Below, piece after piece: positions 1,803 through 18,600 of a stretch of DNA of 64,000 nucleotides. The stretch spans positions 124,001-188,000 of the forward strand of contig NZ_JMPJ01000065.1 in assembly GCF_000735345.1 (NCBI RefSeq), given 5' to 3'. The stretch comes from Ewingella americana ATCC 33852. GTDB lineage: Bacteria; Pseudomonadota; Gammaproteobacteria; Enterobacterales; Enterobacteriaceae. The notes below the pieces were generated by a model. That model saw only the letters and a program-made list of their open reading frames with translations, was not told where the DNA came from and searched no databases. Numbering within the stretch: the stretch's first letter is position 1; every line of letters begins with the position of its first letter. The position numbers and the translations under genes are program-made.

Positions 1803-3494
1803 ATGAACACCCCTCTGATAAACCAGTTAAAAGATGTGGTTGGACATAGCCATGTGCTGACCAAAGCCAATGACAAAGTGCCCTACACCAAAGGATTTCG
1901 CGTCGGCAAAGGCGAGGCGCTAGCCGTCGCGCTGCCAAGCTCACTGATGGAGATGTGGCAGTTGCTGAAAGTCTGCGTCGCCCATGACGTGATCATTCTG
2001 ATGCAAGCCTCCAACACCGGCGTGACCGGCGGTTCGACGCCGGACGGCAATGATTATGACCGCGACATCGTGATCATCAGCACCCGCAAGATTAATGGTT
2101 TGCACCTGCTGGATGACGCCAATCAGGTGCTGGCCTTCCCCGGCACGACCCTCACCGAGCTGGAAAATGCCCTAAAACCTTTCCACCGCGAGCCGCATTC
2201 GGTGATTGGCTCCTCCTGCATCGGCGCGTCGGTGATTGGCGGCATCTGCAATAACTCTGGCGGTTCGCTTATTCGCCGTGGGCCAGCTTTTACTGAGAAA
2301 TCGCTGTATGCCGCCATTGATGAACAGGGCCAGCTGCAGCTGATTAACCATCTGGGCATTGAGTTGGGCGAAACGCCCGAAGAGATCCTCGGTAATCTGG
2401 TCAGCAAAGACTACACCACCGGCGACGCAGCGGACTGGCAGGGGCGGATCTGGGCCGATGATTATGAGAAAAAGCTGCGCAATGTTGATTCCGACCAGCC
2501 GACGCGCTACAACGGCAACCCTGAATATCTGCATGAAAGTGCCGGCTCCAGCGGCAAGCTGGCGGTGTTCTCAGTGCGCCTGCCGACCTTTGAAAGCAGC
2601 CGTGGCACCACCACGTTTTACATCGGCGCCAATGATGAAACCGAGCTGGTGGAGCTGCGCCGCTTCTTGCTCAAGAACCTACAAGCCTCGCCGTTGCAGG
2701 CCGAATACATTCACCGTCAGGCGTTCGATTTAACCATTCGCTATGCCAAGCACGTCTATAAAGCCATCAGTAAACAGGGCGCGGCGAAGATCCCCGAGAT
2801 GTTCGCGCAGAAAAACCAGATTGATAAAATCGTTCGCGCCATCCCGATCCTGCCCAACCACGCCTTTGACAGCCTGATTCAAATCTATAACCGATTCACG
2901 CCCGACGGCGTCGAGCCGCGCATCATGGATTTCCACCACCAGTTTGAGCATCACCTGATGCTGAAAACCGAGCAAAAAGACGCGCAGGAGCTGAAAACGC
3001 TTTTGCAGAATTTCTTTGCCAGCCGACAGGGTAAATTCTTTGAATGCAGCAGCGCCGAAGAGAAGAATGCGTTTTTGATTCGCTTCGGCGTCGGGGGTTG
3101 TACGGTCTACTATTGCGAAGGCAAGGGGCTGGACATCAACCAGCGGCTGGTGGCGTTCGACGTGGCTTTGCGCTCTAACGACCCGGAATGGCGGCTGAAA
3201 TTACCGGCCCATTTACAGCAGCAGGTGCTGCTCGAGTCGTGCTGCGGCCACTTCTTCTGCTTTGTTAACCATCAGGATTATATTCTGAAGCCCGGCTACG
3301 ACCCGACGGCTTTCAAACACGGCGTGCTGGAATATATCGAAACGCGCGGCGCGAAATACCCGGCCGAGCACAATGTCGGCCACCAGTACCACGCCTCGCC
3401 GGACTACGAGCAGCATATGCATCGCCTCGACCCAACCAACAGCTTCAACGCCGGGGTGGGCAAAACCAGTAAGAACAAGTTCTGGCGGGTTTAA
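1803..3494 (+). CDS. dld: Quinone-dependent D-lactate dehydrogenase Dld
   Basis: A 563-residue FAD flavoprotein (E. coli Dld is 571). It oxidises D-lactate to pyruvate and passes electrons to quinone at the inner face of the cytoplasmic membrane. The N-terminal FAD-binding PCMH domain (about residues 40-210) carries the QASNTGVTGGSTP flavin loop and the SVIGSSCIGASVIGG segment. The C-terminal half is the Dld membrane-binding type domain, with the conserved end HRLDPTNSFNAGVGKTSK. The start ATG at 1803 opens the conserved N-terminus. It appears to be a single-gene unit: a terminator lies upstream and a converging gene follows 35 bp after its stop. Confidence 0.96.
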   Translation: MNTPLINQLKDVVGHSHVLTKANDKVPYTKGFRVGKGEALAVALPSSLMEMWQLLKVCVAHDVIILMQASNTGVTGGSTPDGNDYDRDIVIISTRKINGLHLLDDANQVLAFPGTTLTELENALKPFHREPHSVIGSSCIGASVIGGICNNSGGSLIRRGPAFTEKSLYAAIDEQGQLQLINHLGIELGETPEEILGNLVSKDYTTGDAADWQGRIWADDYEKKLRNVDSDQPTRYNGNPEYLHESAGSSGKLAVFSVRLPTFESSRGTTTFYIGANDETELVELRRFLLKNLQASPLQAEYIHRQAFDLTIRYAKHVYKAISKQGAAKIPEMFAQKNQIDKIVRAIPILPNHAFDSLIQIYNRFTPDGVEPRIMDFHHQFEHHLMLKTEQKDAQELKTLLQNFFASRQGKFFECSSAEEKNAFLIRFGVGGCTVYYCEGKGLDINQRLVAFDVALRSNDPEWRLKLPAHLQQQVLLESCCGHFFCFVNHQDYILKPGYDPTAFKHGVLEYIETRGAKYPAEHNVGHQYHASPDYEQHMHRLDPTNSFNAGVGKTSKNKFWRV

Positions 3495-3529
3495 GGCTGT
3501 AAAAAAGCTGTGAAAGAAGGCTGTGGGGA

Positions 3530-4549
3530 CTAGGCCACGCGCCATCTTCTGCGGCGGTTTTTCTCTTCATACATTTGGGCGTCGGCTTCGCGCAGCGCCA
3601 TGTCCGGCGTGGTGTCCGTTGGGTTAATGGCCACCGCGCCGATGCTTGGCCCGGCGTAGTCGATCAGACAAGACTGCAACTGATACTCGCCGGTCAGCAG
3701 CTCGGACAGGCGGGTTTTGAACGCCAGCGCCGCCTGTTGTGCTTCGCTAAACTCTGCAGGCCCTGCTCCGGCGACAATAAACTCGTCGCCTCCCACGCGG
3801 GCAATCACTTCATCGGCACGCACGCCCTCTTTCAGCTTCTGCCCAACAGCCACCAGAAAATCATCCCCCACTTCGTGGCCGTGGACGTCATTAATTTCTT
3901 TGAAATCATCCAGATCGGCGAAAGCGATCAGCACATAGCGCGAATTGGCGTGAGCCTGTGAGAACAGGGTTGGCAGCTGATTGAACAGCGAGCGGCGATT
4001 CGGCAAGCCGGTGAGTTCATCGGTATAGCTGGCGGTGGTCAGCGCGTCGTTGGCGAGCTGCAGCTTCTTCAGCAACTGCTCGCTCTGGATCTGCTGTGCA
4101 ATCAGGTTGGCGAACAGCTGAAGCACCTGCTCGCTGCGCTCGGATAATTCGCGGTGTTCAGAGCTGGCGGCACAGAGCGTGCCATAGAGTGAACCGTCGG
4201 CCAGCGTCACCGGCGTGCTGACATAAGTGGTGATCCCCAGCGCTTTCGCGGCTTCTGAATCGCCCCACACTCCGGCCACGTCACAGGTGTAGCGGCGACC
4301 TTCGTCCAGCGCGCGCTTGCACAATGTGTCTCCCCAAGGCACTGACAGCCCCTCAGGAATGTGCATATTGCTGCCGTTACGGGAAAAAAGAATGTGCTGC
4401 TGCGCACCATCTTCATCAATACGGGTCAGGTAGGTGGACTCCATATTGGTCACCAGCTCAAGCATCTCCAGCAACTGCCGAACCAGTCCTTCGAGCGTAT
4501 ATTCTGCTTCTAACGCTGTGGAAATGCGTTCGAGAAGATTATCTGTCAT
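3530..4549 (-). CDS. Diguanylate cyclase with N-terminal GAF domain
   Basis: A 339-residue cytoplasmic protein without membrane segments. Residues about 20-160 form a GAF-type sensor domain, and about 170-335 a GGDEF domain with an intact active-site motif GGDEF at 253-257 and the metal-binding Asp in FADLDD near 212. This predicts synthesis of cyclic di-GMP from two GTP. The inhibitory I-site (RxxD five residues before GGDEF) is changed to RADE at 244-247, so product inhibition may be weak. The GAF ligand is unknown. It converges with dld. The ATG at 4549 is preceded by AAAGG 11-12 nt upstream, a weak site. Confidence 0.92.
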   Translation of the reverse strand: MTDNLLERISTALEAEYTLEGLVRQLLEMLELVTNMESTYLTRIDEDGAQQHILFSRNGSNMHIPEGLSVPWGDTLCKRALDEGRRYTCDVAGVWGDSEAAKALGITTYVSTPVTLADGSLYGTLCAASSEHRELSERSEQVLQLFANLIAQQIQSEQLLKKLQLANDALTTASYTDELTGLPNRRSLFNQLPTLFSQAHANSRYVLIAFADLDDFKEINDVHGHEVGDDFLVAVGQKLKEGVRADEVIARVGGDEFIVAGAGPAEFSEAQQAALAFKTRLSELLTGEYQLQSCLIDYAGPSIGAVAINPTDTTPDMALREADAQMYEEKNRRRRWRVA

Positions 4550-4786
4550 ATGTCATGAAACCTTTGGTGGAGATAGTCGAGCGGGTGCGAATTTTGAAAG
4601 CGAACGTTTTAACATAAATTACTCTCCCTCGACACGGGAGTTGTGTAAAAAATCGTCGTTTAGCTATCAAGTGTGAAAGCGCGGCGTTCAGTTTGCGGCA
4701 ATAGAGTAACAAGCTAGACTCTCGGCTGACAAACGTGGACCATAAGCTATCACCTATGGTTAACGACACTTTTCCTTGAGACTTCA

Positions 4787-6418
4787 ATGAGCGACACCAA
4801 ACAACCCTTTGCCACGCGCAAACGCCCCATGAAACTGATGACCTCGGTCATTTTGATGATTGGCGCAGTGATCCTCTCCGTCCTGCTGGTTGTGCATTTG
4901 CTCTATCTTATTCAGGTCAGCGACACCACCCGCGACGGCGTGAAAGAGAAGGCGCTGGCCGTGGCCCGAACGCTGGCCGACCTGCCGGAAATCAAGCGCG
5001 GGCTGACGCAGCCTTCTGACAGCGGCATCATTCAGCCCATTGCCGACGCGGCGCAGAAGAGAAATGACCTGCTGTTCGTGGTAGTGACCAACATGAGCGG
5101 CATTCGCTTCTCACATCCGAATAAAGAGGTGATCAGCCGCCGCTTTATTGGTGATGATATCAATCCGGCCCTGCAAGGCCGAGAGAATGTGGCGATCAAC
5201 CACGGGGTGTTGGTGGAGGCACTGCGCGTGTTTACGCCGATTTATGATGAACAGCACAAGCAAATTGGCGTGGTGGCGATTGGCATTTCCCTCAGCAAAG
5301 TGACCGAGCAAATCAATAAGAGCCGCTGGAGCATTTTGTGGACCGTGCTGTTTGGTACTTTGGTCGGCGCGCTGGGCACTTTTGCCTTGGTGAAGATGCT
5401 CAAACGCATCTTGTTCGGGCTTGAACCTTATGAAATATCAACGCTTTTTGAGCAGCGACAGGCGATGTTGCAGTCGATCAAAGAGGGGGTGATTGCCGTC
5501 GACCAAGACGCGCGGGTGACGCTGATTAATCAGGAAGCGCGCCACCTGTTTGGCGAAACCGCGCCCGAGTTTTCGATTAATGTCGAGAACATCGGCGGCT
5601 CGCAGCCCCTGATCCATAACCTCAACGACGTGCTCCAAACCGGGGTGCCGCGTCAGGATGAAGAGATCAACGTTAAAGGCCGTTTACTGCTGAGTAACAC
5701 CGTGCCGGTGCGCAGCAATGGGGTGATTATCGGCGCTATCTGTACCTTCAGGGATAAGACCGAAGTCAGCCAGTTGATGCAGCGCCTGAGCGGCATGGTA
5801 AACTACGCCGATTCGCTGCGAGAGCGCTCGCACGAATTTATGAATAAGCTGCATGTGATCCTCGGGTTACTGCATATGAAGAGCTATACGCAGCTTGAGG
5901 ATTACATTCTCAAAACGGCCAACAATTATCAGACAGAAATTGGCTCGTTGCTGTTAAAAATCAAATCACCTGTTATTGCCGGTTTCTTGTTAAGCAAGAT
6001 GAAACGTGCCACGGATATGCACCATCAGCTGACGCTCAGCGATGACAGCCTGCTGCCCGACAATGCCAATGAAGATCAGGTGGCGGCGCTGATCACCGCG
6101 CTAGGTAATTTGATTGAGAATGCGCTGGACGCTCTGGGCCAGCAGCCGAACGGAGAGATAAGCGTGTTGCTGCATTACCAGAATGGCTGGCTCGCTGGCG
6201 TGGTCAGCGATGACGGCCCCGGCATTCCGCCTGAGCATATTGATGCTATTTTTGAGAAAGGGTTTTCGTCAAAAGGTGAAGAGCGCGGCGTCGGGTTGTC
6301 TCTGGCGAAGCAGCAAATTGAGAACCTCGGCGGAAGCATAAGCGTTGAGTCAGAACCTGATGTATACACCCAATTTTTTGTACAACTCCCGTGGGATAGT
6401 GAGAGGAAACCGGCATGA
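4787..6418 (+). CDS. dcuS: C4-dicarboxylate sensor histidine kinase DcuS
   Basis: A 543-residue kinase, exactly the length of E. coli DcuS. TM1 is at about 19-42, followed by a periplasmic PAS (CitA-type) domain, TM2 at about 183-204, a cytoplasmic PAS, and a histidine kinase/ATPase module. Ligand residues known in DcuS are present at the same numbers: Arg107, His110, Phe120 and Arg147. The phosphorylated His is 349 in the SHEFMNKLH motif. The N-box (GNLIENALDAL) and G-boxes (DDGPGIP, GVGLSLAK) are intact. It senses fumarate, succinate, malate and related acids. It overlaps dcuR by 4 bp (ATGA), so the two are translationally coupled. Confidence 0.97.
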   Translation: MSDTKQPFATRKRPMKLMTSVILMIGAVILSVLLVVHLLYLIQVSDTTRDGVKEKALAVARTLADLPEIKRGLTQPSDSGIIQPIADAAQKRNDLLFVVVTNMSGIRFSHPNKEVISRRFIGDDINPALQGRENVAINHGVLVEALRVFTPIYDEQHKQIGVVAIGISLSKVTEQINKSRWSILWTVLFGTLVGALGTFALVKMLKRILFGLEPYEISTLFEQRQAMLQSIKEGVIAVDQDARVTLINQEARHLFGETAPEFSINVENIGGSQPLIHNLNDVLQTGVPRQDEEINVKGRLLLSNTVPVRSNGVIIGAICTFRDKTEVSQLMQRLSGMVNYADSLRERSHEFMNKLHVILGLLHMKSYTQLEDYILKTANNYQTEIGSLLLKIKSPVIAGFLLSKMKRATDMHHQLTLSDDSLLPDNANEDQVAALITALGNLIENALDALGQQPNGEISVLLHYQNGWLAGVVSDDGPGIPPEHIDAIFEKGFSSKGEERGVGLSLAKQQIENLGGSISVESEPDVYTQFFVQLPWDSERKPA

Positions 6419-7134
6419 TCAATGTGCTGATAGTCGATGATGATGCCATGGTTGCAGAGCTTAACCGCTGTTATGTGACTCAGATTGAAGGGTTTACATG
6501 CACTGGCGTGGCCTCAACCTTACAACAAGCCAAAGATCTGGTGTTGAATTCTCAACATCCTATCGACCTTATTTTGCTTGATGTTTATATGCAGCAGGAG
6601 AACGGGCTGGACTTACTGCCGGTGCTGCGCGATGCCGGTCGCCCAATCGACGTGATTGTTATCTCTTCCGCCGCCGATGCCGCCACCATTAAGAAGTCGC
6701 TGAACTATGGCGTGGTGGATTACCTGATCAAGCCTTTCCAGTTCCCGCGTTTTGAAGAGGCGCTGACCCACTGGCAGCAGAAGAAAACGCTGATGGACCA
6801 TCATCAGTACTATGAGCAATCTGACGTGGATCGCCTGATACACGGCGAGCCGCAGACCACGTCTGACAATAAAAAGCTGCCGAAAGGCTTAACGCCGCAG
6901 ACCCTGCGCACCCTGTGCCAGTGGATTGATGCCCATCCTGACACCGAGTTCTCCACCGATGAACTGGCGCACTCGGTGAATATCTCGCGCGTTTCCTGCC
7001 GTAAGTACCTGATTTGGCTGGCTGACAGCCATATCCTGTTCACCAGCATTCATTACGGTGTGACGGGAAGGCCGGTCTATCGCTATCGGCTGCAAGAAGA
7101 TCATCACGCCCTGTTGAAACAGTACTGCCAGTAA
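6415..7134 (+). CDS. dcuR: Response regulator DcuR
   Basis: A 239-residue CitB-family response regulator, same length as E. coli DcuR. The receiver domain (1-120) has the acidic pocket VDDD at 7-10, the phosphorylated Asp56 in ILLDVYM and Lys107-type lysine in YLIKPF. The C-terminal helix-turn-helix is at about 180-200. In E. coli it activates fumarate respiration genes (dcuB, fumB, frdABCD). Here its likely targets are the reductase, transporter and fumarase genes directly downstream. It converges with apbE, with only 3 bp between the stops. Confidence 0.97.
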   Translation: MINVLIVDDDAMVAELNRCYVTQIEGFTCTGVASTLQQAKDLVLNSQHPIDLILLDVYMQQENGLDLLPVLRDAGRPIDVIVISSAADAATIKKSLNYGVVDYLIKPFQFPRFEEALTHWQQKKTLMDHHQYYEQSDVDRLIHGEPQTTSDNKKLPKGLTPQTLRTLCQWIDAHPDTEFSTDELAHSVNISRVSCRKYLIWLADSHILFTSIHYGVTGRPVYRYRLQEDHHALLKQYCQ

Positions 7135-7137
7135 GCC

Positions 7138-8097
7138 TCAGCGCAGCAGCTGGTAGCTATTATCCAGCAGCGTGAAGCCGAACTGGCGGTGGGACGAGCA
7201 GATAATCTGCTGCTGTTTAGTGACAAAAATCGCCTCGATATGTGCAAGGTCTTGCAGATACTCGAGGCTTTTTTCTACCCCCATGCCATACAGCAGCGTG
7301 GTGTAGATATCGCCGTCGATGGAATCCTCAGAAATCACCGTCACGCTCTGCAACTCGTTATCCAGCGGATAGCCGGTTTTCGGGTCGAGAATATGGTGAT
7401 AGCGGCGGCCGTCCAGCTCGAAATAACGCTCGTAGATGCCCGACGTGACCACCGATTTGTTGCTGACGTGGATCACCCCCAGCAGCGCATCTTCGGCGGC
7501 AAACGGCTTTTTCAGCCCAATCCCCCAGCCCTCTTGCCCACTGGCGCCCAGCGTCTGCACATTGCCGCCGAGGTTAATCAGCCCTTGCGGCACCTGCTCC
7601 GCCAGCAGGAAATCCCTCACCACGTCAGCGATATAACCTTTGGCTATCGCGCCTAAGTCGATTTCCATTCCGGCGTGCTGCAAGAAGACGGAACGCGCGG
7701 CGTCATCAAGTATCACGTCACGGGGGTTGGTCAGGGCAAGCAGGCTTTGCAGGTCACTGGCGGCAGGCACGCTGTGGCCGTTGAAGCCAATCTTCCAGCG
7801 TTTTACCAGCGGGCCGATGGTGAAGTTGAACAGGCTGTCGTTGAGCAAGCTCACGGCCTTGGCGCGTTTAATCAACTCGTAAACCGGCTGGCTGACCTCC
7901 ACCGGGTGGCTGCCCGCCGCGTGGTTTACCGCCATCACTTCAGAGTGCGGGCGATTGACCGTGAAAATGTTCTCTTGCTGTTTGATCAACCGGAAAACGC
8001 GTGACGCCAGACTCTCATTATGTTCAAACAGCTTGAGCAGAATGGGAGAGCCCATCAGCACGGCGGAGTAAGCATAAATTCGATCGTCTGGCGTCAT
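7138..8097 (-). CDS. apbE: ApbE-family FAD:protein FMN transferase, cytoplasmic form
   Basis: A 319-residue ApbE domain protein. Recognisable motifs are DLGAIAKGYIAD, NLGGN, and HHILDPKTGYP with the metal- and FAD-binding residues of the family. ApbE moves FMN from FAD onto a Thr/Ser of the target motif DxxTGAT. There is no signal peptide or lipobox, unlike the periplasmic NqrC/RnfG-modifying ApbE, so it should act in the cytoplasm. It lies 66 bp downstream of the fumarate reductase gene on the same strand. That gene carries the DxxTGAT target, so the pair very likely forms an enzyme-plus-maturase operon. Confidence 0.93.
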   Translation of the reverse strand: MTPDDRIYAYSAVLMGSPILLKLFEHNESLASRVFRLIKQQENIFTVNRPHSEVMAVNHAAGSHPVEVSQPVYELIKRAKAVSLLNDSLFNFTIGPLVKRWKIGFNGHSVPAASDLQSLLALTNPRDVILDDAARSVFLQHAGMEIDLGAIAKGYIADVVRDFLLAEQVPQGLINLGGNVQTLGASGQEGWGIGLKKPFAAEDALLGVIHVSNKSVVTSGIYERYFELDGRRYHHILDPKTGYPLDNELQSVTVISEDSIDGDIYTTLLYGMGVEKSLEYLQDLAHIEAIFVTKQQQIICSSHRQFGFTLLDNSYQLLR

Positions 8098-8163
8098 AGA
8101 TTTATCTCGTCAATCAAGTGGATAAAGCCTGCGCGCCGGGGAAGCGACACAGGCTATTCGCCG

Positions 8164-10941
8164 TTATTTCATGGAGAAGCGAGCGGCGTTGCGTCCTGCA
8201 AGAATACCGAAGATGATGATATCCGCAACGGCATTACCGCCAATTCGGTTGCCGCCGTGGATGCCGCCGACCACTTCACCGGCGGCGAATGCGCCGTTCA
8301 GCGCCTGCTGCTGGCTGTCCAGCACGCAGGTTTCGGTGTTAATGGTCACGCCGCCCATGGTGTGGTGAACCCCCGGCGCGATGCGAATGGCGTAGAACGG
8401 CCCCTGATTGATTGGGTGGCGCATCGCCGTGGTGCGGCCAAACTCGGCGTCGTGCTGCTTATCCACCGCCACGTTGTAAGTCTCGAGGGTGGCGAGGAAG
8501 GCGTGGAAATCCATCTCCAACTTGTTAGCCAGTTCACGCGGAGACTCGGCGCTAATCACAAAACCGCGCGCGATATACTCATCGGCAGCCTTGTTGTTCA
8601 GTCGAATTTGCTCATCAAACACCACGTACGCGTATTTTTCCGGCTGGGCGATGATTTGCGCCGAGACTTTGTCGCGGGTTTCCATCTCATTAAAGAAGCG
8701 TTTCCCGGCCTGATTGACCAGAATCGCCCCGCCGCCGCGAATGGCTTCTGAAATCAGGTAAGAGGTAGTTTGCTCAACCGTTGGGTGGATTTGAATTTCG
8801 CCCATATCCACGGTATCAGCGCCGATGTTCTGCAAAATCGCAATACCGCCGCCGGTTGCACCTTTATGGTTGGTGGTGACGAAGCCGTCCAGCTCAGGGC
8901 GATATTTCACCACCATGTCGCGGTTGGCGCTGAAACCGCCAGTCGCCACAATCACGCTTTTAGCATTAATGGTCAGCACTTCGTTTTCATCGTTTAACAG
9001 CTCGACGCCTTGCACCGCGCCCTGCTCATAACGAATCTGAGTCACCGAGGTGTCGAGCATCACGTCGATATTGCGTTTGTTGAGGTTTTTCACCAAGCCG
9101 CTAATCAGGAAGCCGCCGACCGCGCTGCGATCCGCCGGGCGGTGGGTACGGTCGATGCTCATCCCGCCAGTGATAGTGATATCACTCAGCTCGATGTCGT
9201 GCTCGGCTAGCCACTCCACGGCCTGCGGCGCGCGCTCGACGAACTCTCTCAGCAAGACTTTGTTGTTCTTGAACTGGCCGCCCTTCAGGCTCTCTTGGTA
9301 GAACAGCTCTTTGCTGTCTTCAATGCCTTTGAGTTTCTGGAAGCGCGTTTCCGCCGCGTTCATGCCGACAGAGGCTTTGATGGTGTTGCCGCCAATAGTC
9401 GACATTTTCTCAACCACCAGCACTTTGGCCCCTTCATCACAGGCTTGGATCGCCGCGGCCAAACCGGCACCGCCGCTGCCAACCACGACCACGTCATAGC
9501 TTTGCGGCGCTGACGGGCTGCCGCCCTCTTCCAACAGCTGGGCTTTGCAGGATTTAGCGATAGCTTTTGAAACCGCTTTCTTCACGGCTTCGCTCTGCGT
9601 GGTCGCGCCAGTGACGGCGTCGACGTGCGGGCTGTTGGCATCCAGAATGCGGCTGCGGATGATTTCGAAGCTGGTGGTGAAGGCCACGTCCAGCTCGGCG
9701 TCGGCATCCAGCTCGATATCAGCAATGCGGTCGGTTTCCAGACTGACGTTGATCGCCAGCTGATGGGTGTCGTCCTGCACTTTTTCATTAAACACGCCGG
9801 CTTTGAATTTTTTCGACGTCATGCTCATGTCGCAGATCATCGCGTCGACCAGTGAGAAGCGCCACAGCGGCTCGGGGATGGTCAAGGCTTCGCGCTGGGT
9901 GCTGTCGATAAACAGCTCGAGTTTCTTATCTTGGGTGATGCGATCCGCCCAGTCCGGGTAGGCGATACAGGCTTTGCCGACCGCTACCATGTCGTAACCG
10001 TGCTCCAACGCCAGCTCGGCATCTTCCATATTCACCACGCCACCGACGCCCATCACCGGCACTTTAGCCAGCGTCTCAGAGCGCATCGCGACATATTTGT
10101 CGATCAGCGGCGTTGGATCTTGGCTATCAACAATCGACGGACGCAGGGTGTAACCGACGGAGAAGTGCAGGTAATCCAGACCGCGCGCCGCCAGCTTTTC
10201 CAGCAGGTACATGGTGTCAGCGAAGCGAATGCCCGGCTCTTCAATCTCTTCTGGTGAGAAACGGTAGCCGATAATGAAAGAAGGATCGGCGTATTGCTGG
10301 GCCATCTGATGAGTGATTTCCAGTACCGCCAGCGGGAATTTGGCGCGGTTTTCGCGGCTGCCGCCCCATTGGTCGGTGCGCTGGTTGGAGTTTGGCGAGA
10401 AGAATTGCTGAATCAGGTAAGTGTTAGCGCCGTGGATCTCCACGCCGTCGAAACCGGCTTCAATGGCGCGACGCACCCCTTCGCCAAACTTGGCAATCAT
10501 GCCGTCCACTTCTTCGCTGGTCAGCGCAATCGGCGTTGCGGCACCTTCACGCGGCGCGGCCAAGGCACTTGGCGCGACCGGCGACTGGCCGCCAATCAGT
10601 TTTGGCTCGGTCATGCGGCCGCCGTGATAAATCTGCAATACGGCTTTTGAGCCTTTCTCTTTGATTGCTTGAGCAATTTTTGCCAGACCCGGCACTTTGC
10701 TGTCGCTGTCGATACCAATAGCGCCGGGGAAGGCCAGACCTTTGTCGTCGATAAAGCAGCACTCGACGATAACCGTGCCGATGCTGCCAGCACGGGCGCG
10801 GTAGTATTCCACCAGTTCGCTGTTCACCGAGCCGTCGTAGAAGCCAGTGCAGGTGGTCATCGGTGCCATCAGGAAACGGTTTTTCAACGCGGTGCCGTTT
10901 GGCAGAGTAATAGGACTCAATAACCGATCGCGATTTTTCAT
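8164..10941 (-). CDS. Soluble three-domain fumarate reductase (OYE-like / FMN-binding / FAD-binding)
   Basis: A 925-residue cytoplasmic flavoprotein. Residues ~5-365 are an Old-Yellow-Enzyme type NADH:flavin oxidoreductase domain (active-site HGAN at 170-173). About 375-465 is an FMN_bind domain with the flavinylation motif DAVTGAT at 441-447, the last Thr being the expected attachment site. About 482-925 is a fumarate reductase FAD domain with VVGSGGAGL, the NExxTRD catalytic Arg motif, HHTMGG and GNRIGGNA. There is no signal peptide and no haem CxxCH. This architecture matches the NADH:fumarate oxidoreductase described from Klebsiella. The ATG at 10941 has GGAG 9 nt upstream; an earlier TTG (10956) overlaps that site and is less likely. 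Confidence 0.92.
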   Translation of the reverse strand: MKNRDRLLSPITLPNGTALKNRFLMAPMTTCTGFYDGSVNSELVEYYRARAGSIGTVIVECCFIDDKGLAFPGAIGIDSDSKVPGLAKIAQAIKEKGSKAVLQIYHGGRMTEPKLIGGQSPVAPSALAAPREGAATPIALTSEEVDGMIAKFGEGVRRAIEAGFDGVEIHGANTYLIQQFFSPNSNQRTDQWGGSRENRAKFPLAVLEITHQMAQQYADPSFIIGYRFSPEEIEEPGIRFADTMYLLEKLAARGLDYLHFSVGYTLRPSIVDSQDPTPLIDKYVAMRSETLAKVPVMGVGGVVNMEDAELALEHGYDMVAVGKACIAYPDWADRITQDKKLELFIDSTQREALTIPEPLWRFSLVDAMICDMSMTSKKFKAGVFNEKVQDDTHQLAINVSLETDRIADIELDADAELDVAFTTSFEIIRSRILDANSPHVDAVTGATTQSEAVKKAVSKAIAKSCKAQLLEEGGSPSAPQSYDVVVVGSGGAGLAAAIQACDEGAKVLVVEKMSTIGGNTIKASVGMNAAETRFQKLKGIEDSKELFYQESLKGGQFKNNKVLLREFVERAPQAVEWLAEHDIELSDITITGGMSIDRTHRPADRSAVGGFLISGLVKNLNKRNIDVMLDTSVTQIRYEQGAVQGVELLNDENEVLTINAKSVIVATGGFSANRDMVVKYRPELDGFVTTNHKGATGGGIAILQNIGADTVDMGEIQIHPTVEQTTSYLISEAIRGGGAILVNQAGKRFFNEMETRDKVSAQIIAQPEKYAYVVFDEQIRLNNKAADEYIARGFVISAESPRELANKLEMDFHAFLATLETYNVAVDKQHDAEFGRTTAMRHPINQGPFYAIRIAPGVHHTMGGVTINTETCVLDSQQQALNGAFAAGEVVGGIHGGNRIGGNAVADIIIFGILAGRNAARFSMK

Positions 10942-11418
10942 AATAATTAACTCCAACCTAAAGTGTTTAATATTTTGTGAATTCGGTATCGGATTGATTA
11001 ATTCTTTTTAGTTAGTCTCCGCTCTCATGGTATTAATATATTACTTTCTTTACTTTCATAATCTCTAACCTTAGTTATTTAACTATTTACCTATTAATAT
11101 TCCGCTGTATTTATTAATGCATTGTTAAATGACAAATAGAATGTTCACAATTCATCAATTATCCACCAGCTTTATATTTAATTAGCCCCAACTACTTAAT
11201 GAGGAATAGCCCCCCAGCAGGCGCGTCTAGCGCAAAAAGATAAATAATCAATAAATTTCAATGAATTGAGATTAATTCACTTGCAAGCAAACCTCCTGAC
11301 GGCGAGAGAAAGAGCACTCATTACTAAAATTCCTAAATTAATTTCACTTAAAAACCCCCGCTAAAAATTAACCCTTATTTTTATGCATGATTAAAAAGTT
11401 AAATATAAATAGGTTTTC

Positions 11419-11432
11419 TTGATCCAGATCAA
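11419..11432. promoter_or_regulatory. FNR box, perfect consensus
   Basis: TTGATCCAGATCAA matches the FNR consensus TTGATNNNNATCAA at all ten fixed positions. Its centre (11425.5) is 28-29 bp before a candidate -10 hexamer at 11454-11459, the spacing of a class II FNR-activated promoter (site at about -41.5) firing rightward into the transporter gene. Confidence 0.8.
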
Positions 11433-11453
11433 AAGCAATAAATAGGAAAATCG

Positions 11454-11459
11454 CATTAT
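11454..11459 (+). promoter_or_regulatory. Candidate -10 element of the FNR-dependent promoter
   Basis: CATTAT, within CATTATATAAAT, placed for a start near 11466-11467. This would leave a leader of about 235 nt before the transporter ATG. No good -35 is present, as expected when FNR overlaps it. Confidence 0.5.
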
Positions 11460-11700
11460 ATAAATAACTCCTCCCCATTAAGGGGGATATCCCTACCAAA
11501 TAATGAATATCAATAATGGAGCAACGTAAATGCCGCCATTAAATAGCTTAAGAAAGTTAAGTAACTAAAAAAATCAAAAACAGACTGACTTTATTACGCA
11601 AACCTACCCAACAGAGCCGTTAAGAGCCCGCAGTGAACACTCCTGCCGCTCGCGAGATCTTGGGTACTCAGAATTCTCAACTACTTGTTAGGTCAAACCT

Positions 11701-13215
11701 ATGACTGATATCTCCAAAACAACCATGGTGACACCGCCGGTTAGCAAAGTGTCAGGCGGCAAAAAAAACCGCCTGATGATGATGCTTATGCCAATCCTGG
11801 TGGCAGTAATTCTGTTGCTCATTCCCGTTCCTGAAGGCTTGCAGCCTCACGCATGGCACTTCTTCGCGGTGTTCGTTGGCGTCATTGTGGGGCTGATTTT
11901 TGAGCCTCTCCCCGGCGCAGTGATCGGCCTAACCGGCGTGGTAGTGATTGCGCTGTTCAGCCAGTGGCTGCTGTTTAGCCCGGCAGAACTGGCTGACCCG
12001 AAATTCAAAATGGCAGCACAGTCCTTTAAGTGGGCAGTGAGCGGCTTCGGCAACTCCACCGTGTGGCTTATCTTCGGCGCATTCATGTTTGCCGCTGGCT
12101 ATGATAAAACCCAGTTTGGTCGCCGTCTGGCACTGATTTTAGTGAAGTATCTTGGCCGCCGCAGCCTGACGCTGGGCTACGCCATCGCCTTCGCCGACCT
12201 GCTGCTGGCGCCTTTCACTCCGTCAAACACGGCGCGCAGCGGTGGGACTATCTACCCAATCATCGCCAACTTGCCGCCGCTGTACGGCTCTAAACCGAAT
12301 GACCCAAGCGCGCGCAAAATCGGCTCTTACCTGATGTGGGTTGCCATCACCGCCGCCTGTATTACCAGCTCCATGTTCCTCTCCGCGTTGGCACCGAACT
12401 TGCTGGCACTGGGCATCGTTAACAGCATCACCGGCATCAATATCTCTTGGGGCATGTGGTTCTTCGCCTTCCTGCCAGTGGGTCTGTTACTGCTGCTGAC
12501 CATGCCGCTGCTGGCTTACTGGCTCTACCCGCCAGAAGTGAAAGTGAATGACGAAGTGCCGCGCTGGGCCACCGCCGAGCTGGCAAAACTGGGCAAAATG
12601 TCCCGTCATGAAATCCTGCTGCTGGTGTTCGTATGCTGCGCCCTGATGATGTGGATTTTCGCCGCCAGCTTCATCGAACCTGCGATGGCAGCCCTGCTGG
12701 TAGTGGTGCTGATGCTGTGGACCGGCGTGCTGAACTGGAACGACATCACCAGCAACAAACCGGCGTGGAACACCTTCGCATGGTTCGCCACTCTGGTGGC
12801 TCTGGCCGACGGCCTATCTCGCACCGGTTTCATCTCTTGGTTAGGTAAAGAAGGCGCGGTGATGATGGGTGGTATCTCTCCGGGGACAGCGACTATCGTG
12901 CTGCTGCTGGCGTTCTACCTGCTGCACTACCTGTTTGCCAGCACCACGGCGCACACCACCGCCCTGTTACCAGCGATGCTGACCATCGGTGCCGCAATCC
13001 CAGGCATCAACCTGCAAGTGTTCTGCCTGCTGATGGTCACCTCTCTCGGCGTGATGGGGATCATCACCCCATACGGTACTGGTCCAAGCCCGATTTACTA
13101 CGGCAGCGGTTATCTGCCAACCAAAGACTACTGGCGCTTAGGGACCATCTTCGGCGCACTGTTCTTAGCCGCCCTGCTGTTTATCGGCTACCCTTGGATG
13201 GCCATGCTGTTCTAA
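11701..13215 (+). CDS. DASS-family dicarboxylate transporter (CitT/TtdT-like antiporter)
   Basis: A 504-residue membrane protein with about 12-14 hydrophobic segments and the family motif TPSNTARSGG near residue 175. The second conserved repeat lies around LFASTTAHTTALLPAM and the TPYGTGPSPIYYGSG segment. Close relatives exchange citrate, tartrate or other di/tricarboxylates for succinate. Given DcuSR, fumarate reductase and fumarase next to it, uptake of fumarate, malate or tartrate with export of succinate is the likely role. The exact substrate is inference. It is the first gene of a rightward unit with an FNR-type promoter upstream. A strong AGGAGG sequence directly follows its stop. Confidence 0.9.
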   Translation: MTDISKTTMVTPPVSKVSGGKKNRLMMMLMPILVAVILLLIPVPEGLQPHAWHFFAVFVGVIVGLIFEPLPGAVIGLTGVVVIALFSQWLLFSPAELADPKFKMAAQSFKWAVSGFGNSTVWLIFGAFMFAAGYDKTQFGRRLALILVKYLGRRSLTLGYAIAFADLLLAPFTPSNTARSGGTIYPIIANLPPLYGSKPNDPSARKIGSYLMWVAITAACITSSMFLSALAPNLLALGIVNSITGINISWGMWFFAFLPVGLLLLLTMPLLAYWLYPPEVKVNDEVPRWATAELAKLGKMSRHEILLLVFVCCALMMWIFAASFIEPAMAALLVVVLMLWTGVLNWNDITSNKPAWNTFAWFATLVALADGLSRTGFISWLGKEGAVMMGGISPGTATIVLLLAFYLLHYLFASTTAHTTALLPAMLTIGAAIPGINLQVFCLLMVTSLGVMGIITPYGTGPSPIYYGSGYLPTKDYWRLGTIFGALFLAALLFIGYPWMAMLF

Positions 13216-13227
13216 AGGAGGATTAAT

Positions 13228-13266
13228 TTGATACTCAAGCCATTAACAGTGCTTTTACTCAAATAA
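13228..13266 (+). CDS. Possible 12-codon leader-type ORF with strong ribosome site
   Basis: A TTG start six nt after AGGAGG (13216-13221), which itself begins right after the transporter stop codon. It encodes 12 residues ([12 protein letters not shown]) and stops at TAA. A perfect hairpin follows at 13280-13310. No homologue is known to me. Alternatively the ribosome site is a leftover from a gene that was lost or moved. Confidence 0.25.
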
Positions 13267-13279
13267 AACATCCCCAGCC

Positions 13280-13310
13280 TGTTGCCAGCCAATCACCTAG
13301 GCTGGCAACA
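13280..13310 (+). other. Intercistronic hairpin between transporter and fumarase genes
   Basis: An 11-bp perfect inverted repeat, TGTTGCCAGCC and GGCTGGCAACA, with a 9-nt loop. No T-run follows, so it is more likely an mRNA-processing, stability or attenuation element than a simple terminator. Confidence 0.55.
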
Positions 13311-13406
13311 TACACACGAATAAAAACGTCGCCCCCGATCTACCCGAAGATCACCCCAGGAAGTCGTTGTACCCATGGCGGCAATAACGGATTAAGTGAG
13401 AAAACA

Positions 13407-15056
13407 ATGTCGAATAAAACTTTCCATTATCAAGATCCATTCCCTCTCGCCAAAGAGGACACCGAATACTATCTGTTAACCCGTGACCACGTTTCAGTTA
13501 GCCAGTTTGATGGCGAAGAAGTGCTGAAAGTCGCGCCAGAAGGTCTGACTTTGCTCGCACAGCAAGCTTTCCACGACGCCTCCTTCATGCTACGCCCAGC
13601 TCACCAGAAACAAGTAGCAGCCATCCTTGATGACCCGGAAGCCAGCGAGAATGACCGTTATGTCGCGCTGCAATTCCTCAGAAACTCTGAAATCGCCGCC
13701 AAAGGTATTCTGCCAACCTGTCAGGACACCGGGACTGCGATCATCATGGGTAAAAAAGGTCAGCGCGTGTGGACCGGCGGTGGCGACGAAGCCGCGCTTT
13801 CCAAAGGCGTGTACAACACCTTTATCGAAGACAACCTGCGTTACTCGCAAAACGCCCCGCTGGATATGTATAAAGAGGTGAACACTGGCACCAACCTGCC
13901 AGCGCAAATCGACCTCTACAGCGTGGATGGCGACGAATATAAATTCCTCTGCGTCGCTAAAGGCGGCGGCTCGGCCAACAAAACCTATCTTTATCAAGAA
14001 ACCAAAGCGCTGATCACCCCGGCTAAGCTGAAAGATTATCTGGTCGATAAAATGCGTACTTTGGGCACGGCTGCCTGCCCGCCGTACCACATCGCCTTCG
14101 TGATTGGCGGGACGTCAGCAGAAGCCACGCTGAAAACCGTGAAACTGGCCTCTACTCACTATTACGATGGCCTGCCAACCGAAGGTAACGAGCACGGTCA
14201 GGCGTTCCGCGACGTAGAGTTGGAAAAAGAGCTGCTGGTGGAAGCCAATAACCTCGGCCTCGGCGCACAGTTCGGCGGCAAATACTTCGCGCACGATATC
14301 CGCGTGGTTCGTCTGCCACGCCACGGCGCATCTTGCCCAGTCGGCATGGGCGTCTCCTGCTCCGCCGACCGTAATATCAAAGCCAAAATCAACCGCGACG
14401 GTATCTGGATCGAGAAGCTGGAAGACAATCCGGGTAAATACATCCCTGAAGCATTGCGCCAGCAGGGTGAAACCGGCGTGGTTGAAGTTGACCTCAACCG
14501 CCCGATGAAAGAGATCCTCGCGCAGTTGTCTGAGTATCCGGTCTCAACTCGCCTCTCACTGAGCGGCACCATCATCGTTGGCCGCGACATTGCGCACGCC
14601 AAGCTGAAAGAGCGTCTGGATAACGGCGAAGGTCTGCCACAGTATGTGAAAGATCACCCGATTTACTACGCGGGCCCGGCCAAAACTCCTGAAGGTTATG
14701 CTTCCGGCTCACTCGGCCCAACCACCGCGGGCCGCATGGACTCCTACGTCGACCTGCTGCAATCCAACGGCGGCAGCATGATCATGCTGGCAAAAGGCAA
14801 CCGTAGTCAGCAAGTCACCGACGCCTGCCACAAACACGGCGGTTTCTACCTCGGCAGCATCGGCGGCCCGGCTGCGGTACTGGCTCAGCAGAGCATTAAG
14901 AGCCTCGAGTGCGTCGAGTACCCTGAACTGGGGATGGAAGCTATCTGGAAAATCGAAGTGGAAAACTTCCCGGCGTTCATTCTGGTGGATGACAAAGGTA
15001 ACGACTTCTTCGAGCAGATCCGCATCAACCAGTGTGCTAAGTGCGTCGTGAAGTAA
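13407..15056 (+). CDS. Class I (iron-sulfur) fumarate hydratase
   Basis: A 549-residue fumarase of the FumA/FumB type (548 in E. coli), which interconverts fumarate and malate with an oxygen-sensitive [4Fe-4S] cluster. Candidate cluster cysteines are Cys105 in ILPTCQDTG, one in the [10 protein letters not shown] segment and one in the C-terminal half. The N-terminal alpha domain and C-terminal beta domain (with the TTAGRMDSY motif) are both complete. It lies 191 bp behind the transporter on the same strand and ends at a strong terminator. Context suggests the anaerobic FumB role, but sequence alone does not separate FumA from FumB. Confidence 0.96.
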
Positions 15057-15077
15057 GCTCGCTTAACGCTGAAATGC

Positions 15078-15106
15078 AAAAGCCCGCCATTCACGGCGGG
15101 CTTTTT
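15078..15106 (+). terminator. Intrinsic terminator after fumarase gene
   Basis: AGCCCGCC/GGCGGGCT stem with a 6-nt loop, followed by TTTTT. Confidence 0.9.
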
Positions 15107-15143
15107 ATGGTCTGGAGCAAGCAAATTCGGGCACCACACCCAT

Positions 15144-15168
15144 AAAAAAAGGCCGGATAACCGGCCTT
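15144..15168 (-). terminator. Intrinsic terminator of the small secreted protein gene
   Basis: Read on the minus strand: AAGGCCGG/CCGGCCTT with a TTAT-type loop, followed by a T-run. It is 20 bp past the stop of the gene at 15189-15518. Confidence 0.85.
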
Positions 15169-15188
15169 CAGTGTGGAGAACAAGTCGA

Positions 15189-15518
15189 TTAGTTAGTGAC
15201 TTTATTCTTCAGGTCTTCGCTACCCTGCTTGGTTTTATCCCAAGCTTTTTCCGAACCTTCTTTGGTTTTATCCCAGCCTTTTTTGGTGCCTTCAGACACT
15301 TTGCTGGTGGTAGAGTCGCGCTTACCTTCTGCGGCGTGCTTAGCTTTCTGCTTCTGCTCTTCGCCTTTATTCTGCTCTTTGTGCAGTTTTTCTTTCGCAG
15401 TATCTGCACCTTTGTGCGCTTCAGCGACAGTTTCATCCGTTGCGTGGCTGACGGTATCAGCAGCAAACACTGGGGAAGCCAGTAAAATCGCGGACAGAGC
15501 AATAATTGCCTTTTTCAT
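15189..15518 (-). CDS. Small secreted lysine-rich repetitive protein, unknown function
   Basis: 109 residues. A signal peptide of about 19 residues (MKKAIIALSAILLASPVFA) precedes a very hydrophilic mature part rich in Lys, Glu, Thr and Ala. The C-terminal half shows 11-residue repeats (WDKTKEGSEKA, WDKTKQGSEDL), a pattern like LEA-type amphipathic helices. No cysteine and no known domain. It is a single gene with its own terminator; an AT-rich stretch with a GAGGGAATATT ribosome site precedes the ATG. A periplasmic stress-protective role is plausible but only inferred. Confidence 0.8.
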   Translation of the reverse strand: MKKAIIALSAILLASPVFAADTVSHATDETVAEAHKGADTAKEKLHKEQNKGEEQKQKAKHAAEGKRDSTTSKVSEGTKKGWDKTKEGSEKAWDKTKQGSEDLKNKVTN

Positions 15519-17501: not shown

Positions 17502-18600
17502 TCATAACCCGGCTTTCAAACTTGCTTCAATGAATTTATCCAGGTCGCCATCCAAAACGGCCTGCGTGTTTCGTGTCTCAACGCCAGTGCGCAGATCTTT
17601 GATACGTGCGTCATCGAGCACGTAAGAACGAATCTGGCTACCCCAGCCGATGTCTGACTTGTTGTCTTCCATCTGCTGTTTATCAGCATTTTTCTTTTGC
17701 ATCTCAAACTCATAAAGCTTGGCTTTCATCTGCTTCATGGCCTGATCTTTGTTCTTATGCTGAGAACGGTCGTTCTGGCATTGGGTCACAATGTTGGTTG
17801 GAAGGTGGGTAATACGTACCGCAGATTCCGTTTTGTTAACGTGCTGACCACCCGCACCTGACGCGCGGTATACGTCGATACGCAGGTCGGCAGGGTTAAT
17901 TTCAATCTCGATATCGTCATCCACTTCTGGGTAAACGAAGGCCGAGCTGAAGGAGGTGTGACGACGGCCGCCGGAGTCGAACGGGCTTTTACGAACCAGA
18001 CGGTGGACGCCGGTTTCCGTGCGCAGCCAGCCGAAAGCGTAGTCACCGGTTATCTTGATGGTGGCTGATTTGAGGCCCGCGACGTCGCCGTCAGACTCTT
18101 CAATCATCTCTGTTTTGAAGCCTTTGGCTTCGGCCCAGCGCAGGTACATACGCACCAACATGCTGGCCCAGTCCTGAGCTTCTGTGCCGCCGGAACCGGC
18201 TTGGATATCCAGATAGCAGCTTGCGCTGTCGTATTCACCGGAGAACATGCGACGGAATTCCAACTGCTCAAGCTTGGCGGTCAGTTGGTCGAGTTCTTCT
18301 ACGGCTTCGTGGAAAGTCTCTTCGTCGTCAGCTTCAACCGCCAGTTCCAGCAAGCCTGACACATCGTCACGGCCCTGAGTTAACTGGTCGATGGTTTCAA
18401 CGATAGCTTCCAGTGCGGAACGCTCTTTGCCCAGCGCCTGTGCGCGCTCTGGCTCGTTCCAAACGTCCGGCTGTTCCAGCTCGGCGTTAACTTCTTCTAG
18501 GCGCTCTTTCTTGGCATCATAGTCAAAGATACCCCCTAAGGACGTTTGTCCGCTCGGACAGGTCCTGAATTCGGTTTTTTACCGGATTAATTTCAAACAT
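17502..18600 (-). CDS. prfB: Peptide chain release factor 2 (RF2), with programmed +1 frameshift
   Basis: RF2 recognises UGA and UAA stop codons. The first reading frame has 25 codons from ATG at 18600 and ends at TGA (18525-18523). A +1 shift there joins it to the 340-codon second frame starting with GAC, giving 365 residues as in E. coli. The stop-recognition SPF motif (KSPFDSGG) and catalytic GGQ motif ([11 protein letters not shown]) are both present. The frameshift lets RF2 level set its own synthesis. A simple gene finder would call only the second frame from an internal ATG (18362). It is cotranscribed with lysS. Confidence 0.97.
18522..18541 (-). promoter_or_regulatory. prfB programmed frameshift site
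   Basis: On the minus strand: internal Shine-Dalgarno AGGGGG, 3-nt spacer TAT, then slippery CTT-TGA-C. The spacing equals the E. coli signal exactly. Confidence 0.96.

Follow-up and report, generated by a model that had tools for sequence, protein, structure and literature searches.

We analyzed a 64,000-nucleotide stretch of the genome of Ewingella americana ATCC 33852 (contig NZ_JMPJ01000065.1, positions 124,001 to 188,000; hereafter the window), in which six genes at positions 4787-15056, arranged in the order dcuS> dcuR> <apbE <reductase / DASS> fumA>, form a compact cluster around a putative soluble NADH:fumarate reductase. The plus strand carries dcuS (4787..6418), encoding a C4-dicarboxylate sensor histidine kinase with sCache_3_2, PAS and HATPase domains (NF008298, 829 bits, cut-off 520), and dcuR (6415..7134), encoding a response regulator (NF007750 equivalog, 455.5 bits, cut-off 262). 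These are followed on the minus strand by apbE (7138..8097), for a flavin adenine dinucleotide (FAD):protein flavin mononucleotide (FMN) transferase without a lipoprotein-type N-terminus (PF02424, 6.6e-82), and by the putative reductase gene (8164..10941; PF00724, PF04205 and PF00890). A gene for a DASS-family di/tricarboxylate carrier (11701..13215; PF00939, 8.1e-160; TIGR00785, 500.7 bits, cut-off 198.6) and fumA (13407..15056), for a class I (Fe-S) fumarase (NF011919, 1210 bits, cut-off 1105), lie on the plus strand. None of the six genes contains an internal stop. The cluster had been described in an earlier note, made from the letters of the DNA, and this description was borne out: the open reading frames are in place, the Pfam matches lie far above chance, and the proteins named as DcuS/MalK, DcuR, DASS and FumA all pass the NCBIfam cut-offs.

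The reductase comprises 925 residues when read from the ATG at 10941, nine bases upstream of which a GGAG stretch was seen by eye, or 930 residues from an upstream TTG. A domain search, which the earlier note had proposed, matched all three expected profiles within one chain: an OYE-like FMN domain (residues 7-341; PF00724, 1.3e-76), FMN_bind (405-461; PF04205, 1.2e-5) and FAD_binding_2 (483-905; PF00890, 3.2e-77). We take the Klebsiella enzyme to have its domains in this order, which fits the end-to-end match found in a Klebsiella pneumoniae record (L004, see below). The flavocytochrome c3 of Shewanella was aligned to the FAD domain (residues 461-925, 8.9e-116), and the equivalents of its H365, E378, R402, H504 and R544, which we take to be the fumarate-site residues, are kept as H719, E732, R756, H859/H860 and R899. 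Comparison with relatives (103 rows, reduced to 92 full-length and then 87 distinct sequences; the 11 dropped were partial or contained a stop) revealed that the FMN-linking Thr447, the OYE residues H170, N173 and Y175, and all checked fumarate-site positions, including Leu729 and Ser731, are identical in 87/87.

The flavin attachment motif DAVTGAT (residues 441-447) fits the pattern D-x-x-[ST]-G-A-[ST] given in a review on ApbE (PMC12052999). The full D-x-x-[ST]-G-A-T motif occurs in 86 of the 87 relatives; at its fourth position 64 sequences have T, 22 have S and one has A. The N-terminus of the neighbouring ApbE, read by eye, has no lipobox-like stretch, and the protein (132.7 bits) falls below the NF007774 cut-off of 498, which is passed by the other ApbE of this genome, 23.5% identical to it. 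According to the same review, K. pneumoniae has two ApbEs, flavinylation of a soluble fumarate reductase requires the one that lacks a signal peptide, and replacement of the FMN-linking Thr by Ala abolishes flavinylation. The domains, the motif, the catalytic residues and the similar enzyme reported from Klebsiella support the prediction, already made in the earlier note, that the reductase would be flavinylated by the neighbouring ApbE.

The two regulatory proteins are close to those of Escherichia coli: DcuR is 74.9% and DcuS 68.6% identical to its counterpart, and DcuS keeps R107, H110, R147, F149 and H349, which we assume to be functional positions. The genome holds a single DcuS orthologue, the sole other match at 1e-20 being 30% identical. 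FumA, the only class I fumarase of its family in this genome, is 87.4% identical to E. coli FumB, with all nine Cys in common, and contains the Fumerase (PF05681, 1.7e-80) and Fumerase_C (PF05683, 1.3e-87) domains. One carrier of the DcuA/DcuB family is present in the genome, in which E. coli DcuB has no match at 1e-150. The nearest E. coli carrier of the DASS protein is TtdT (54.1% identical), of the tartrate/succinate type; the word antiporter, used in the earlier note, derives from family membership only (DASS, 54% identical to TtdT) and was not upheld.

The reductase-apbE and DASS-fumA pairs diverge from a 759-bp region (10942-11700). The statement that the cluster has only one shared control region therefore holds for these four structural genes and fails for dcuSR, which is convergent with apbE and has its own 237-bp upstream region (4550-4786), adjoining a diguanylate cyclase gene. 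The 759-bp region contains a perfect FNR-consensus box, TTGATCCAGATCAA (11419..11432), 268 bp before the DASS ATG; it is the sole match in the window (0.07 expected) to the consensus, which we take to be that of FNR. Among relatives, perfect boxes were present in 63 of 73 reductase-DASS intergenic regions (0.25 expected from dinucleotide shuffles) and, once identical sequences had been removed, in 60 of 70 distinct regions (window included), while the inner four bases of the box vary across relatives. The box was absent in all seven loci that have the reductase and DASS genes without apbE, i.e. six second copies and the sole copy of one genome (G086). A search for CRP sites with a presumed consensus, covering the 60 box-bearing regions and one shuffle of each, gave a best match with two or fewer mismatches in 27/60 against 12/60 shuffled regions, an unclear excess from which we claim no site. 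A sigma-70 promoter scan of 4400-15300 returned six candidates (7.6 expected) and was not used.

An unguided spaced-word search of the 60 FNR-box regions revealed a further element, the dyad TAGT-N5-AACT, in 43 of them and in none of three shuffles. Exact copies of its long form, TTAGTTNNNNAACTATTTA, are present in 34 of the 70 distinct regions. In the window the dyad, TTAGTTATTTAACTATTTA, lies at 11071..11089, 129 bp from the reductase ATG, and a tentative, weaker copy with one mismatch (11554..11567) is found nearer the DASS ATG. The core, AGTTNNNNAACT, was counted in 69 distinct regions (the symbiont locus L137, described below, was left out) and was present in 45 of the 55 with dcuR nearby versus 0 of the 14 without it; related sequences share descent, and the Fisher value (1.3e-8) therefore overstates the evidence. 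Together with the presence of AAAGTTAATTAACTATTAT in the dcuR-dcuB intergenic region of E. coli, this inclines us slightly towards regarding the dyad as a candidate DcuR operator, to which DcuR would bind.

Alternatively, the dyad could be bound by some other regulator or belong to the promoter of the reductase operon, and we give this a little less than an even chance. The dyad lies near the reductase start and is AT-rich, the exact core is missing in 10 of the 55 dcuR-bearing regions (including seven Erwiniaceae loci), and the promoters of dcuB lend the DcuR assignment weak support. Upstream of dcuB (30 regions, the best of the DcuB matches) the exact core occurred in only four cases, with 0.52 expected, and three of these four have no dcuR in the stretch examined; where dcuR is adjacent (12 regions), the core was exact in one and present as a one-base variant in five. 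A perfect FNR box was found at none of the 30 dcuB promoters examined, and the DcuR footprint published for the LEE1 promoter of enterohaemorrhagic E. coli (PMC10636207) is AT-rich, with a TTA start, and only loosely similar. Against the alternative stand the association of the core with dcuR, confounded as it is by shared descent, and the E. coli intergenic site.

The reductase was matched at 1e-100 in 47 of 198 genomes of the family, 43 of which have it at full length. Contrary to the absence from all relatives that the earlier note had named as a possible refutation, the cluster is widespread, yet 151/198 genomes lack such a match, including G024 of the same genus. All six genes are present in at least 29, and apbE in at least 41, of 49 loci with a full-length reductase in these genomes (paralogues and the window included). 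Among 51 named loci, which overlap with the former set in some genomes, the six genes occur together in at least 24, and apbE is found in all of the first 43 (L087-L129, all Enterobacterales by title); since several loci end at contig ends, the locus counts are lower bounds. Of the six genes, the Pectobacterium and Dickeya loci show just the reductase-apbE pair, which therefore looks like the core. Two Dickeya-type loci (L045 and L127) have a second, distant ApbE (27-29% identical) near the pair. The closest named reductases are those of Rahnella (up to 89% identical), followed by those of Rouxiella aceris, Hafnia psychrotolerans, Ewingella and Mangrovibacter (85-86%).

Several individual loci deserve mention. 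In the listed Rahnella, Duffyella and Pantoea records (including L005 and L006), the reductase is located on large plasmids of about 280-720 kb. The matches in L130-L136, mostly lactic acid bacteria plus one Coriobacteriales bin, concern only the FAD part (46-56% identical) and have no OYE domain. In the Type-B symbiont of Plautia stali (L137), the best reductase match is small, contains stops and adjoins a long fumA match (86%); in this insect symbiont the locus is probably in decay.

The genome also carries a second reductase, 76.6% identical to that of the window and with the flavin motif retained, at G000:C18 (L037, 9965-12760), beside genes at 7878-9389 and 12903-14330. It has a divergent DASS gene, whose product is 83.2% identical to the window DASS, and neither apbE nor a fumarase gene was found within the stretch examined. 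After the reductase comes a 475-residue protein that matched nothing in Pfam or NCBIfam and that, among the loci compared, was otherwise seen only in a locus of the same genus (L056). In the tree, this copy forms a clade with the second copies of G169, G173 and G035 (99% SH-aLRT), placed inside an eight-row set (98%) with two Erwinia loci and apart from the window copy, while the second copies of G071 and G192 are placed elsewhere. In G086, the sole reductase has no apbE neighbour and two ApbEs are encoded elsewhere in the genome, which makes flavinylation in trans plausible.

Close dcuR matches (at least 66% identity) numbered 48 among the 198 genomes: 33 lie within 6 kb of a reductase gene (in one of these, the half-complete genome G028, only a reductase fragment matched), another 11 have dcuB within 5 kb, and four are near neither. 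A further 21 dcuR matches at 61% or less, two of which adjoin dcuB, were kept separate, since they are probably paralogues or divergent versions. None of the 11 genomes with a close dcuR beside dcuB has a full-length reductase. In 6 of the 33 reductase-side genomes a close dcuB lies elsewhere, where close means about 86% or more and excludes the DcuB relatives at 54-68%. One could propose, although we consider it rather doubtful, that DcuSR is a regulator that can be exchanged between modules and has switched partners, lying with DcuB and FumB in the E. coli type and with a DASS carrier and the soluble NADH-linked reductase in the present type, the two arrangements excluding each other within a genome. 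DcuS of E. coli without DctA is permanently on, according to PMC8307970, and the DASS carrier may have assumed the co-sensor role of DctA or DcuB. In the sampled genomes the two locations of dcuSR exclude each other, and they offer a testable case of a sensor changing its carrier partner.

These observations lead us to regard the locus, with high though not complete confidence, as a Klebsiella-type module for anaerobic C4-dicarboxylate metabolism with a soluble NADH:fumarate reductase. The sequence itself shows the genes and their order, the domains, the flavin motif, the catalytic residues and the conservation of the sites; from these we infer enzyme activity, electron path, direction of transport and binding of FNR and DcuR, in the following scheme. 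DcuS would sense external fumarate, malate or succinate, and DcuR would activate the divergent promoters, to which FNR would add the signal that oxygen is absent. Malate, fumarate or tartrate would be imported by the DASS carrier, probably against succinate, and malate would be converted to fumarate by FumA. The OYE-like FMN domain of the reductase would take hydride from NADH and pass the electrons, via the FMN that the adjacent ApbE would link to Thr447, to the FAD domain, where fumarate would be reduced to succinate. Cytoplasmic NADH would thus be re-oxidised with no electron passage through the membrane. The gene identities, domains, flavinylation and role in fumarate metabolism proposed in the earlier note are supported; its antiporter and its comparisons with E. 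coli and with the membrane-bound reductase (see below) are not, as worded.

Some of the data do not favour this interpretation. The residues corresponding to M375 and T377 of flavocytochrome c3 are Leu729 and Ser731, so the substrate range could differ; with TtdT as the nearest E. coli carrier, the cargo of the DASS protein is uncertain; the second reductase has no adjoining apbE, which indicates that adjacency is not required; and G024, of the same genus, lacks both the reductase and dcuR at the thresholds used. The two changed neighbours of the fumarate site would suit a reductase acting mainly on another unsaturated acid (acrylate, cinnamate or urocanate), beside which the fumarate genes lie for other reasons. 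Urocanate reductase is indeed among the solved relatives, with a score (281 bits) above that of the yeast-type fumarate reductase 2 (214 bits), and the NCBIfam vinyl phenol reductase model is listed, below its cut-off. This is nevertheless very improbable: the best 17 solved-structure matches are fumarate reductases of the flavocytochrome c3 type (335 to 391 bits), every tested fumarate-site residue is kept, fumarase and DcuSR adjoin the reductase in 29/49 and 24/51 loci, and the Klebsiella enzyme of the same kind, in whose sequence record the same Leu and Ser occur, is reported to be a fumarate reductase.

Still less credible is an aerobic uptake system for malate, tartrate or succinate with an idle reductase. 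The closeness of the carrier to TtdT and the broad cargo range of the DASS family would allow it, but the perfect FNR box in 60/70 distinct intergenic regions and the persistence of the reductase-apbE pair in Pectobacterium and Dickeya loci without DASS, fumA and dcuSR argue against it. The anaerobic module suggests that fumarate can serve many Enterobacterales as a soluble NADH sink, under conserved FNR and probably DcuR control.

Upstream of dcuS, the window (1803-4549) contains a D-lactate dehydrogenase gene (dld) and the diguanylate cyclase gene (GAF-GGDEF), whose position next to dcuS was otherwise observed, among the loci compared, only in G169 of the same genus (L040). At 17502-18362, a prfB-like frame has a late GTG start, in keeping with the programmed frameshift of release factor 2.

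The functions assembled here had been said to be spread over several loci in E. coli. There, dcuS, dcuR, dcuB and fumB are adjacent, and the contrast was therefore overstated: both loci unite a sensor, a regulator, a C4-dicarboxylate carrier and a class I fumarase. The E. coli stretch differs in having DcuB in place of DASS and all four genes in one direction, and contains no fumarate reductase or ApbE gene. Membrane-bound FrdABCD, named in the earlier note as the reductase of E. coli, is encoded in the Ewingella genome as well (G000:C71), with FrdA, FrdB, FrdC and FrdD each above cut-off; the soluble enzyme would thus supplement the membrane complex. The two would share fumarate reduction and have a related FAD domain. 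FrdABCD is a complex with Fe-S and anchor subunits, and no such subunits were found among the open reading frames at 4787-15056. Flavocytochrome c3 of Shewanella is similar in its FAD domain and fumarate residues, and differs in the absence of OYE and FMN_bind domains and, presumably, in its haem domain and periplasmic location.

The closest known system is that of K. pneumoniae. All six genes recur, identically ordered, in CP125156.1 (L004), a 5.4-Mb record filed as a plasmid. The reductase match there is in two pieces, the longer of which is 77% identical and has the same motif and residues. The reductase and fumA matches of L004 each consist of two overlapping, unannotated pieces, owing to a frame break or a sequencing error. 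On the basis of its kind and its ApbE neighbour, we assume this reductase to correspond to the studied Klebsiella enzyme (Bertsova 2014 and 2020), work that we know as cited in two articles (PMC12052999 and PMC11325843). The latter, citing Bertsova 2020, describes the enzyme as 'ETC-independent, NADH-dependent' (ETC, electron transport chain). Cytoplasmic ApbE flavinylation and NADH-linked fumarate reduction, as reported there, would be common to both systems; the reductases differ by about 23% (longer piece), and the Ewingella genome, in contrast, has a second reductase copy and no E. coli DcuB match at 1e-150. A study of K. pneumoniae DcuSR (PMC12772337) mentions neither apbE nor frd in its main text, and in a search covering few subscription journals we found no prior description of the gene order or of the FNR or dyad sites. 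The six-gene cluster is common among E. coli relatives, the enzyme kind is already known, and the window holds a further, ordinary member, here beside FrdABCD. The locus itself is thus unsurprising; the parts worth keeping are its control sites and the change of partner of dcuSR.

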